A DNA stretch of 64,000 bases, from the NCBI RefSeq assembly GCF_001432305.1, contig NZ_KQ483358.1:2252227-2316226 (forward strand), in the 5' to 3' direction. A model generated the notes under the pieces. The model had not been told where the DNA came from and did no database searches. It saw only the letters and a list, made by a program, of their open reading frames with translations. Shown in pieces: positions 9,543 to 52,384 of the stretch; the stretch's first letter is position 1; every line of letters starts with the position of its first letter. Made by a program: the position numbers and the translations under genes. Origin of the DNA: Curvibacter sp. PAE-UM (lineage in GTDB: Bacteria; Pseudomonadota; Gammaproteobacteria; Burkholderiales; Burkholderiaceae_C).

Positions 9543-11459
9543 ATGCAGTTCTACAAAAGTGGCTTCAGGGGTGGCAACCCCGACGTCAAGCAAGCCGCGC
9601 CGAACCGGCGCAACCGGGGCATCAACGAGCCGCTGCCGGAAAAGGTGGATGTGCTGATTGCCGGCACCGGCCCGGCGGGTCTGTGCCTGGCGGCGCAGTT
9701 GTCGCAGTTCCCGGAGATCGAGACGATGATCGTGGAGCGCATGCCCAGCAACATCATCAAGGGCAAGGCCGACGGCATCAACACGCGCTCCATGGAAATG
9801 TTCCAGGCCTTCGGCTTTGCCGACAAGGTCAAGCGCGAAACCTACTGGGTCAACCAGACCAATTTCTGGATGCCGGACCCCAAGAATCCTGCCCACATCA
9901 AGCGCGCGGGCCGGGTGCAAGACGTGGCCGACGACAGCTCGGAAATGCCGCACATCCTGATCAACCAGGCGCGGCTGCACGAGCTGTTCCTGGAGGTCAT
10001 GAAGAATTCCCCGTCGCGCCTGGAGCCCGACTACAGCTGGGAAATCCTGGGCCTGACGGTGGACACCAGCACCGACGATCACCCGGTGACCGTGACCCTG
10101 AAAGACGCCAGCGGCCTGAACTGGGGGGGCACCCGCACCGTGCGGGCGAACTACGTGGTGGGTTGCGACGGGGCGCATTCGGCCGTGCGCAAGGCGATCG
10201 GCGGTGAACTCAAGGGCGATGCCGCACATCAGGCCTGGGGCGTGATGGACATCCTCGCCAACACCGATTTCCCGGACGTGCGGCAGAAGTGCCTGATCTC
10301 TTCCGCCAGTGAAGGCAATTTGCTGATCCTGCCGCGCGAGGGTGGTTATGTGTTCCGCATGTACGTGGAGCTCGACAAGCTCCGGCCCGACGAGAAGGCG
10401 GCGCAGCGCAAGCTCACGCAGCACGACATGATTGCCGCGGCGAACCGCATCATCAAGCCTTACACGATCGACGTGAAGGAGGTGGTCTGGTGGTCCATCT
10501 ACGACATTGGGCACAGCATCACCGACCGGTTCGACGACGTGCCCGCGGGCGTGGACCGCAACCCGCGCGTGTTCACGGCGGGGGGCGCCTGCCCCACTCA
10601 CAGCCCCAAGGCGGGGCAGGGCATGAATGTCTCGATGCAGGACACCTTCAACCTGGGCTGGAAGCTGGTGCACGTGCTCCAGGGCCGGGCCGATGCCCGC
10701 CTGTTGCGCAGCTATTCCAAAGAGCGGCTGACCGAGGCCAAACGCCTGGTGGAGACGGACCACAAATGGGCGCGGGTCATGTCGGCCCCCACCACCCAGG
10801 CCGAGCGGGAAGGGATTGAGGAGCCGCGCATCATTCGCCAGTTCAAGGAGAACCTGGAGTTCACGGGCGGCCTGGCCGTCAAGTACGACCCGTCCGCGCT
10901 GATCGGCCCGGCAACTTATCAGTCGCTGGCGACCGGCGAGACCATCGGCCGCCGCTTTCACTCCGCGCCCGTGGTGCGGGTGTCGGACGCCAAGCAAATG
11001 CAGCTTGGCCATGTGGCCGAGGCCGATGCGCGCTGGCGCATCTACGCCTTTGCCGGCAAGGCCGACGGTACCGATTCGATCTCGGCCATCCACCAGCTCG
11101 CGGATTGGCTGGAAACCGACGCGAACTCCCCGGTCGTCAAGCACACACGCAAGGGCGAAGACATCGACGCGGTGATCGACTTCCGCGCGGTGTTCCAGCA
11201 AACCTTCGACCAGCTGGCCTACGAGAAGATGCCGTCTCTGCTCAAGCCCAAGACCGGCAAACTGGGCCTGCAAGACCATGAGAAGGTCTTCTGCGTCGAC
11301 CACAAGGGTGTGGGCGATATTTACGACATGCGCGGCATCAACCGCGACAAAGGCTGCATGGTGGTGGTGCGGCCGGACCAATACGTGGCCCACGTGCTGC
11401 CGTTGGACGCGCGCCAGGAGCTGGCGGACTTCTTTGCGGGCATTCTGCTGCCGGCCTGA
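9543..11459 (+). CDS. FAD-dependent aromatic hydroxylase, MobA/phenol hydroxylase family
   Basis: A 638-aa flavoprotein monooxygenase closely resembling 3-hydroxybenzoate 4-monooxygenase (MobA) in length and layout: PF01494 FAD/substrate domain, then a C-terminal thioredoxin-like dimerisation domain. The FAD motif GTGPAG lies near residue 40 and the DG motif GCDGAHSAVR near 215. The third FAD motif, normally GDACHTHSPKAGQGMN, reads GGACPTHSPKAGQGMN here, so Asp348 is Gly and His351 is Pro. That Asp normally contacts the FAD ribityl chain, so activity is doubtful. Start ATG 9543 follows a GGAG ribosome binding site. An upstream in-frame ATG at 9480 is rejected. The true substrate is uncertain. 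Confidence 0.85.
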   Translation: MQFYKSGFRGGNPDVKQAAPNRRNRGINEPLPEKVDVLIAGTGPAGLCLAAQLSQFPEIETMIVERMPSNIIKGKADGINTRSMEMFQAFGFADKVKRETYWVNQTNFWMPDPKNPAHIKRAGRVQDVADDSSEMPHILINQARLHELFLEVMKNSPSRLEPDYSWEILGLTVDTSTDDHPVTVTLKDASGLNWGGTRTVRANYVVGCDGAHSAVRKAIGGELKGDAAHQAWGVMDILANTDFPDVRQKCLISSASEGNLLILPREGGYVFRMYVELDKLRPDEKAAQRKLTQHDMIAAANRIIKPYTIDVKEVVWWSIYDIGHSITDRFDDVPAGVDRNPRVFTAGGACPTHSPKAGQGMNVSMQDTFNLGWKLVHVLQGRADARLLRSYSKERLTEAKRLVETDHKWARVMSAPTTQAEREGIEEPRIIRQFKENLEFTGGLAVKYDPSALIGPATYQSLATGETIGRRFHSAPVVRVSDAKQMQLGHVAEADARWRIYAFAGKADGTDSISAIHQLADWLETDANSPVVKHTRKGEDIDAVIDFRAVFQQTFDQLAYEKMPSLLKPKTGKLGLQDHEKVFCVDHKGVGDIYDMRGINRDKGCMVVVRPDQYVAHVLPLDARQELADFFAGILLPA

Positions 11460-15875: not shown

Positions 15876-15994
15876 CGCCCCTGTACTAAGGCTCCTTCCT
15901 GCCACAGTCGCATCCGCCAACCGGTCCAGCCGTGCCGCGGAAGGTTTTTCCAACCAGTCAAAGTTTCCCTCAGGGAAACGGAGGTCAGCGCAAT

Positions 15995-51474: not shown

Positions 51475-51825
51475 ATGGCCTGGATCATCACCAAATACCT
51501 GCTGACGGCCGCGCTGGTGGTGCTGGTCTCGGAGCTGGCCAAGCGCAGCGACCGCCTGGGCGGCCTGCTGGCGGCCCTGCCGCTGGTGACCGTGCTCACC
51601 CTGATCTGGCTTTACGTGGAAAAGCAGCCGCCGGACAAGATCGCCAACCACGCCTGGTACACCTTCTGGTACGTGCTGCCCACGCTGCCCATGTTCCTGG
51701 CCTTTCCGCTGCTGTTGCCGCGCCTGGGTTTCTGGCCCAGCCTGCTGGCCTGCGCCCTCATCACCGTGGCCTGTTTCGGCCTGCTGGCCTTGCTCTTGCG
51801 CCACTTCGGCATTGAGTTGCTCTAG
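51475..51825 (+). CDS. DUF3147 membrane protein
   Basis: A 116-aa protein with four hydrophobic segments (about residues 3-20, 28-46, 60-80, 88-108), of family DUF3147, function unknown. The motif LVVLVSELAKRSDRLGGLLAALPLV is typical. It follows the NodJ-like gene by 13 bases and may share its transcript. Its stop codon TAG forms the first CTAG of the inverted-repeat element that follows, so the insertion has left the frame intact or supplied the stop. Confidence 0.82.
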   Translation: MAWIITKYLLTAALVVLVSELAKRSDRLGGLLAALPLVTVLTLIWLYVEKQPPDKIANHAWYTFWYVLPTLPMFLAFPLLLPRLGFWPSLLACALITVACFGLLALLLRHFGIELL

Positions 51826-52094
51826 GGCCTGTTCCCACTAATTTCTCAATTGCGAACGTGGTTAAAACCGCGCCAATCTAGGCGCGCGACGACGCCCAGG
51901 CTAATCGCCTGGGCTAGGAGTGCAACAACGAGTGGCGCGGTTTTAACCACGTTCCCTCCGGGTTGCGGCCAAAAAAGCCATGCGGGGTGTTGCGCGGACT
52001 GGCCGGGGGGTGACCCCGGCGGCGTCCACGCGCCTACCGCATGGCTTTTTTGATCCACAACGCATTTTGAGAAATTAGTGGGAACAGGCCCTAG
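51822..52094. mobile_element. 273-bp non-coding element with 28-bp terminal inverted repeats (MITE-like)
   Basis: Outer arms 51822-51849 and 52067-52094 are perfect inverted copies beginning CTAGGGCCTGTTCCCACT. Inside are two long hairpins. Hairpin 1 has a perfect 22-bp stem (51854-51875 with 51933-51954) and an inner 8-bp stem GCCCAGGC/GCCTGGGC. Hairpin 2 has a perfect 16-bp stem (51970-51985 with 52037-52052) and an inner GCCGGGG/CCCCGGC. If CTAG is a 4-bp target duplication, the element proper is 51826-52090. It holds no open frame of note. This fills the gene-free stretch from 51826 to 52192. The rest (52095-52192) has an AGGGCGT/ACGCCCT hairpin and a possible extended -10 TGCTAGAGT. Confidence 0.7.
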
Positions 52095-52192: not shown

Positions 52193-52384
52193 TTGGTAAC
52201 ACCCAATTACGGATACGAAAAACGCCAGAAAGAGCTGGCCAAGAAGCGCAAGAAGGAAGACAAGCTCAAGGAAAAAGCCCAGCGCAAGCTCGGCGGTCCG
52301 GTGGGCGAAGAGGGCGCGCCTGAAGAGGGTGGCGACACACCAGAAGCCGACGCCTCTGCAACCGGGGACACCCCCCAGCCATGA
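52193..52384 (+). CDS. Small highly charged protein, 63 aa
   Basis: A 63-aa cytosolic protein. Residues 1-33 are strongly basic and helical (YEKRQKELAKKRKKEDKLKEKAQ), and the rest is acidic and disordered. I recall similar short proteins starting with NYGYEKRQKELAKKRKKE across Burkholderiales, without a known function. The start is a TTG at 52193 with a weak ribosome binding site. It overlaps the next gene by four bases. Confidence 0.72.
   Translation: MVTPNYGYEKRQKELAKKRKKEDKLKEKAQRKLGGPVGEEGAPEEGGDTPEADASATGDTPQP

Follow-up and report, generated by a model that had tools for sequence, protein, structure and literature searches.

A copy of a widespread, mobile and non-autonomous palindromic family of about 266 bp in the genome of Curvibacter sp. 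PAE-UM

Described elements and the copy in the window

The ERIC sequences, or IRUs, of enterobacteria are intergenic elements of 127 bp with terminal inverted repeats (TIRs) of 7 bp and TA termini, whose transcripts fold and whose orientation to genes has known effects, and they exemplify MITEs without a known transposase partner (PMC2229807, as far as the available part of that source goes). According to the same portion of the source (PMC2229807), the TA-type MITEs Correia/NEMIS and RUP have TIRs (24 bp in NEMIS), TA termini and a target duplication, RUP being accompanied by an IS630 partner with matching ends, and the CIR elements of Caulobacter and Brucella, of about 110 bp, consist of two hairpin arms joined by a linker, with GANTC sites and no terminal stem. 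MITEPsy1 of Pseudomonas syringae, which is 100 bp long with 18-bp ends like those of ISPsy2, inserts at CTAG or YTAA with a 4-bp duplication and was shown to transpose (available part of PMC3189936). The repeats of Pseudomonas fluorescens, such as R6 and R200, are intergenic sequences of a gammaproteobacterium with sizes of 50-352 bp, some with long inverted repeats, which are most frequent between convergent genes (accessible text of PMC2718517), and REP or REPIN sequences are described as palindromes of 20-40 bp tagged with GTAG or CGTC at one end (PMC3733652, again for the part available). Finally, the accessible part of a review cites a MITE in Polaromonas sp. JS666 (PMC10969869).

The window analysed here, a stretch of 64,000 nucleotides from Curvibacter sp. 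PAE-UM, holds one copy of a widespread family of mobile, non-autonomous palindromic elements of about 266 bp, which works like a TA-type MITE such as ERIC. Among the defining features of such MITEs that were tested, the element shows terminal inverted repeats that are kept in diverged copies, a TA duplication with empty sites, and multiple, dispersed and mostly intergenic copies; the exception is a known autonomous relative with matching ends, none having been found in the searches. As with ERIC, there is no known transposase partner, the termini are TA, the location is intergenic, the transcripts are predicted to fold and the orientation to genes matters, but the terminal stem reaches ~25-28 bp, two inverted arms meet in a three-way junction, the sequence is a different one and the range is order- and phylum-wide. 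No blastn match (E <= 0.001) for the window copy was found in 5,426 genomes of E. coli, a species in which the ERIC sequence occurs. With Correia/NEMIS and RUP the element shares TIRs, TA termini and target duplication, but neither length nor inner architecture, nor was a partner like that of RUP found for it; with MITEPsy1 it has the CTAG target in common, but not the size, the ends or the extent of the duplication; and with CIR it shares two linked hairpin arms, but not the length, the lack of a terminal stem or the GANTC sites. From the P. fluorescens repeats, none of which is of ~266 bp in the available account, it is set apart by description. Two candidates were rejected: a REP or REPIN moved by RAYT, since an element of ~266 bp with long TIRs does not fit the palindrome definition, and a known RNA family, with no Rfam 15 match at gathering score in a scan of the whole window and none in a permissive scan of the element. 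No description of the family was found in the literature searched, which lay largely outside subscription papers. Polaromonas sp. JS666 is of the same bacterial family as many of the carriers, and its MITE could be a member of the repeat family described here, at least one member of which would then have been discovered before.

An earlier note, made from the letters of this locus alone, had described perfect terminal repeats of 28 bp around two perfect stems of 22 and 16 bp, in a nesting beyond chance, and this description was borne out. Perfect inverted repeats of at least 14 bp within 300 bp occur exactly three times in the window, with 28 bp (51822..52094), 22 bp (51854..51954) and 16 bp (51970..52052), all of them in the element (Table 1); in 30 first-order Markov windows the longest inverted repeat was of 12-15 bp. 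RNA folding predicts a three-way junction of -189 kcal/mol (z = -16), with none of 200 shuffles folding as low, and the same junction is predicted on both strands, with z-scores of -16 and -19. The '-' strand, called sense hereafter, is the orientation that matches the family consensus, and covariance model R1, which was built with the window copy included, spans 51822-52094 end to end with 301 bits on '-' vs 157 on '+'. CTAG does stand at both ends, and the left one holds the stop TAG (51823-51825) of the gene at 51475-51825; the DUF3147 label given to this gene did not survive, as Pfam gave no family at E <= 0.001. The statement that no transposase lies nearby also held, with none of the 11 predicted proteins at 47.6-56.3 kb matching a Pfam transposase family and four matching nothing. 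The element is overlapped by mechanical ORFs only (107 aa on '-'), no sigma-70 promoter match was obtained in or near the window copy, and the two terminator-like hits both lie outside the element. Elsewhere in the window, a sucA RNA motif is present at 15908-15990 (Rfam RF01070, 82 bits).

Table 1. Positions of the element, its parts and the neighbouring genes, counted from the first nucleotide of the window
Feature	Position	Strand	Basis
Whole element (GGG..CCC, 267 bp)	51825..52091	-	R1 covariance match and empty sites in L245 and L246
Left copy of TA target duplication, within CTAG 51822-51825	51823..51824	.	Empty sites: single CTAG, flanks overlapping by 2 bp
Right copy of TA target duplication, within CTAG 52091-52094	52092..52093	.	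Empty sites
Left terminal inverted repeat: 28 bp when CTA is counted, 25 bp of them within the element	51825..51849	+	
Right terminal inverted repeat	52067..52091	-	
Hairpin of arm 2, with a perfect outer stem of 22 bp, an internal loop and an apical stem rich in GC	51854..51954	-	
Arm 1 hairpin: perfect 16-bp stem, prolonged outward on both sides by imperfect pairing	51970..52052	-	
Junction motif CCC-NNN-GGG between the arms, sense CCCGGAGGG	51954..51962	-	Cross-phylum conservation
Island in arm 2, reading CCAATCTAGGCGCGCG on the window strand, with the shared motif C(A/T)AGGC	51873..51888	+	
Island in arm 2, reading GGAGTGCAACAACGAGTGG on the window strand, with the shared motif GCAAC	51917..51935	+	
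Island in arm 1, TAGGCGC on the sense strand	52030..52036	-	
Island in arm 1, GCGCAACACCCCGC on the sense strand	51982..51995	-	
Upstream gene, stop TAG within target CTAG, membrane-protein-like by eye	51475..51825	+	
Next predicted downstream gene, 63 aa, without Pfam match, ~100 bp from the element	52193..52384	+	

Target site and dispersal

The orthologous locus lacks the element in two relatives (L245 and L246), which read ..CTCTAG.. where the window reads ..CTCTA[GGG...CCC]TAG... Only the TA inside CTAG is doubled, CTAG not being wholly duplicated, and the 4-bp duplication expected by the earlier note has to be replaced by one of 2 bp. A third relative (L247) also has CTCTAG there, with a right flank that aligns less exactly, and the stop TAG of the upstream gene is also present in the empty sites. 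The G and C beside the TA were assigned to the element because, from copy to copy, the left flank finishes with N-T-A-G and the right one starts with C-T-A-N, the outer N being free to differ. The target is mostly CTAG or TTAG (YTAR), with weaker GG and CC further out, and such a TA target explains the stop codons at the border of the element. Of the 22 genomes with both flanks aligned at the thrB locus, two carry the element (L009 and L190/L291), placed after the stop codon of the upstream gene and before the start of thrB; in the 20 genomes without it at most ~100 other bases separate the genes. In the proposed mechanism, insertion would take place at TA with duplication of these two bases, preferably within CTAG/YTAR and hence often at stop codons.

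Besides the window copy, the 3.6-Mb genome of the same strain has eight others, of which three contain runs of N that interrupt them, as well as a single lone end and two short derivatives, L059 and L066, in which deletion has left little but both ends. The family is present in 16 of 26 genomes of the genus, this one included. In the taxonomic family, blastn with the window copy gave matches in 76 of 399 genomes, some of them weak or partial only. An exact 21-base end pattern was found in 73 stretches of named genomes, not all of them whole copies, from Hylemonella, Acidovorax, Curvibacter, Thiobacillus, Rhodoferax, Ca. Tenderia, Neptuniibacter, Mariprofundus and others, the stretches in Hahella and Zhongshania having no partner end. 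At E <= 0.001, a covariance model built from 38 diverse copies had matches in 113 out of 300 genomes from the order and in 76 out of 398 from the phylum, nearly all at full length among the matches listed, and copy numbers are lower bounds because at most 6 (order) or 4 (phylum) candidates per genome were scored. The multiple copies and empty sites that had been proposed for a search of Burkholderiales genomes were thus both found, the copies being dispersed, and the family extends far beyond that order, across the phylum; a sequence restricted to the orthologous position in relatives, with gradual drift of the stems, is not what was encountered. Length is nearly constant, as 90 of 152 full-length copies have exactly 264 nt from GGCC to GGCC. 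These 152 derive from 164 unique hits, and 147 were left after removal of copies with runs of N or a length outside 255-270. From the long copies of the genus search that were still to be fetched, 60 were taken, G016:C52:35268 and G018:C34:171033 being left out.

Copies are also carried by plasmid-named records of Azotobacter chroococcum, Pseudomonas aeruginosa and Halomonas, as confirmed by the covariance model, and a plasmid-named record of Variovorax gave a blastn match over 85% of an Acidovorax copy. Moreover, an IMG/VR contig has a whole copy together with proteins that match PHROGs head and lysis families. Searches of the phage collection with the window copy and L365 gave no match, and those of plasmids with the window copy and L228 gave none of relevance. 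In the viral contig L330, a whole copy (11133-11405) in the rarer orientation is located between an unassigned ORF and an acetyltransferase-like gene.

Within the genus most copies are old, the nearest neighbour being in the same genome for 6 of 76 copies, and for 3 of 4 in one Acidovorax. Five other genomes (G217, G156, G187, G320 and G032) have two fetched copies each that are 96-98% alike within the genome and 74-90% alike to all else fetched, the picture being less clear in other genera, and the family may be active in some lineages only. That these are old immobile repeats, vertically inherited and decaying, is very improbable: like-flanked copies in several species (L185/L187/L189 and L040/L182), the few near-identical copies inside genus genomes and the derivatives L059 and L066 would fit such a history, but the empty sites, the non-orthologous positions, the copies on plasmids and a phage contig and the within-genome pairs of these five genomes do not.

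Runs of ten N break a hairpin arm in L057, L060 and L009 (at ~378, 1,701 and 3,222 kb of the same genome), and several metagenome contigs (L090, L091, L113 and L125) end inside a copy; the hairpins seem to break sequencing or assembly. In L059, L066, L087, L106, L116 and L132, palindromes of ~40-50 bp have both ends almost joined, the junction in L059 and L066 fitting a deletion between short direct repeats, and joined-end palindromes of this kind are a possible source of REP-like palindromes. In Candidatus Tenderia (L081, L104 and L095) there are relatives that share the ends of the family but are longer, at 308-317 bp, or shorter, at 93 bp.

Stems, islands and ends

In an alignment of 38 copies (A1, with 38 of 40 representatives, the arm-inverted L181 and L203 being left out), 94.8% of the cells in 82 pairs form standard pairs, double changes occur in 72 of the 82 pairs, and covariation scores 0.512, compared with no more than 0.094 for slid partners; the least-changing part of the stems is formed by the first nine or so terminal bases. 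In the 127 copies of the 147 that remain at under 95% identity, the 77 pairs predicted on both strands comprise 9227 Watson-Crick, 153 G-T, 132 A-C and 211 other cells, G-T and A-C being equal within error (p = 0.24). RNase P from the same bacterial family served as a small control (28 of 30 fetched loci, without L352 and L354 as unusually long; 55 of 60 genomes matched), in which G-T accounts for 29 of 47 non-Watson-Crick cells vs 153 of 496 in the element (p = 4e-5), and at its strand-neutral pairs the excess of G-T over A-C is only 29 to 13, which makes the strand test supportive rather than decisive as to upkeep at the DNA level. Among 51 cross-phylum copies the counts are 145 G-T vs 81 A-C, with strand and alignment picked by a model that credits G-T. 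The about equal rarity of both mismatches in the first set points to complementarity being maintained at the DNA level, the cross-phylum set being less clean. The structured RNA that the earlier note had offered as an option is disfavoured, as the thing under selection, by the near-equal pairing on both strands in the first set, the cross-phylum set being less symmetric.

Template switching homogenises the arms of inverted repeats and also inverts the spacer (PMC8794818 and PMC8604942, in their available parts), and both signatures are present in the family. In 28 close pairs of copies there are 30 double stem changes vs 92 single ones, ~10 times the expectation for independent changes by the arithmetic of this analysis, and two of 147 copies (L181 and L203) have an inverted arm 2. 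From this pattern, template switching is a plausible means of upkeep for the stems: the arms would be kept complementary at the DNA level, most likely by a polymerase that switches between them, copying changes from arm to arm and sometimes inverting an arm.

Mean conservation is 0.80 in unpaired vs 0.84 in paired columns (p = 0.09) and hence not higher where pairing is absent, so the conserved islands account for just a portion of the loops, and stems contain some of them as well. Among the 72 columns that reach 95% conservation or more, 58 belong to the inner part, the other 14 falling within the 30 outermost columns at each end. In arm 1, the internal loop has C(A/T)AGGCG to one side and CAACGC to the opposite one throughout the phylum, most positions being conserved at 80-90% or more, and arm 2 shows the majority sequence CGGCGTTGC plus a kept GCCT(T/A)G, which are the reverse complements of the arm 1 islands. 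The CCC and GGG of the junction are at least 90% conserved in the 51 cross-phylum copies, which are the best-strand rows from 52 sources (without L372, L399 and L411), L392 having been dropped as a duplicate of L364. In a genus-weighted consensus, the same nine letters, CTAGGCGCG, are placed near-equally in arm 1 and in inverted arm 2, and the two arms are read here as inverted copies of one module.

The copies of Mariprofundus and Neptuniibacter align with this consensus at their ends only, yet the full model matches them (E ~1e-26 and ~1e-30), and both length and fold are preserved. Whereas the ends differ at three or more of nine bases from GGG(C/T)CTGTT in 7 of the 51 cross-phylum copies, with the whole model still matching, they are kept in the other 44.

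In the search for a mover, IS630 (NF033545) passed the cut-off in 2 of the 26 genomes of the genus, that of the strain itself not being among them, and the terminal repeat, which the earlier note had proposed to look for around transposase genes, was not seen at four IS630 hits (three over the cut-off), whose inverted repeats are other sequences than the ends of the element. Among 25 contigs with end sequences, in which a partner was sought up to 4 kb away, long-range candidates were found in three (L133, L095 and L118), and none of ten ORFs scanned in them matched a transposase. Neither IS630 transposase as the partner nor the end sequences as borders of a longer autonomous element gained support, and this non-exhaustive search of IS630 hits and 25 contigs found no autonomous element with matching ends.

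It is conceivable, if rather doubtful, that the family consists of ordinary MITEs, in which a DDE transposase (e.g. IS630/Tc1-like, with a TA target) would read the terminal repeats only and the arms would be incidental or serve a host function. The conserved ends in 44 of the 51 distant copies raised the weight of this explanation and lowered that of the reading preferred here, and the TA duplication, the YTAR target and the precedent of RUP and IS630-Spn1 (PMC2229807, available part) go in the same direction, but the scarcity of IS630 in the genus, the different repeats beside it, the contig search without a transposase and the preservation of length and fold where the ends differ weigh against it. 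The preferred reading, held with slightly better than even confidence, is that of a non-autonomous element of the MITE kind that inserts at TA, is recognised by its fold, is moved in trans and has its arms kept at the DNA level. An enzyme acting in trans would recognise the folded element through paired stems and conserved islands, the outermost bases helping; such a mover would read the folded core, with the ends as a possible second signal. Among the options of the earlier note, the non-autonomous transposon is the one supported, by dispersed copies, empty sites and target duplication, and the structured RNA is not favoured. A more speculative proposal, to be taken as tentative, is that the family represents a class of mobile DNA read largely by its folded shape, a three-way junction of two-fold symmetry made of two inverted modules with the islands C(A/T)AGGC and GCAAC, and moved across Pseudomonadota by an enzyme working on extruded or single-stranded DNA. 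In such a class, homogenisation by template switching would leave the stems free, apart from the outermost bases, to adopt almost any sequence so long as it is complementary.

Gene neighbourhood and implications

A small gene caller trained on the window (58 genes, 84% coding) called both neighbours for 145 of 152 copies, which are mostly intergenic. Between co-directional genes the sense strand runs along transcription in 77 copies and against it in 21 (p = 1e-8), with 43 vs 4 where the downstream start lies within 15 nt and 34 vs 17 otherwise. Ten such downstream proteins were scanned, of which eight match NCBIfam and four are over the curated cut-off (dapE, thrB, rimI and coaD); as the match begins within the first seven residues for dapE, thrB and coaD, the start codons 3-13 nt past the element belong to real genes in these cases. 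No bias with respect to the replication fork was found (12 with vs 11 against, partial copies included and the terminus assumed half-way from dnaA). In the distant set the counts are 11 vs 5, in the same direction and not significant, with a gene caller trained on the window only (43 loci, 30 with both neighbours called; L364, L366 and L372, duplicates of L392, L399 and L406, were left out, as were L375, L379 and L382 near contig starts). The copy in the window belongs to the rarer orientation, and ~100 bp separate it from the next predicted start. Both strands fold alike, and the bias observed implies that the element affects the downstream gene in a strand-specific manner, through which copies between co-directional genes would persist mainly in one orientation.

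In L185, L187 and L189, the element lies between a purine-rich, ribosome-binding-like sequence (GGAGGAG in two of them, GGGGGA in the third) and an ATG common to all three, flanks that are suggestive of a Shine-Dalgarno sequence split by insertion.

The strong orientation bias between co-directional genes could also be expected of a structured RNA or cis-regulatory mRNA element on the sense strand (e.g. an RNase III/E site or a re-initiation hairpin) spread by recombination. This explanation, which also draws on the very stable fold, the known orientation effects of ERIC (PMC2229807, available part), the real start codons 3-13 nt past the element and the excess of G-T over A-C in the cross-phylum set, is unlikely, as Watson-Crick pairing is near-symmetric on both strands in the first set, no Rfam match was obtained, insertion is precise at TA and the window copy is in the rarer orientation.

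The family is present in over a third of the sampled genomes of the order, yet without a description in the literature searched. Its drifting but paired stems, conserved islands and near-constant length allow the recognition of shape to be separated from that of end sequence, and the question of how ERIC-like elements move without a known transposase becomes directly testable. Moreover, strong covariation alone is no proof of a functional RNA, as a DNA process can yield it. Finally, the element is found between the stop and start codons of housekeeping genes, often with too few bases for a ribosome binding site, and this short gap raises a testable question, that of translation across a hairpin.
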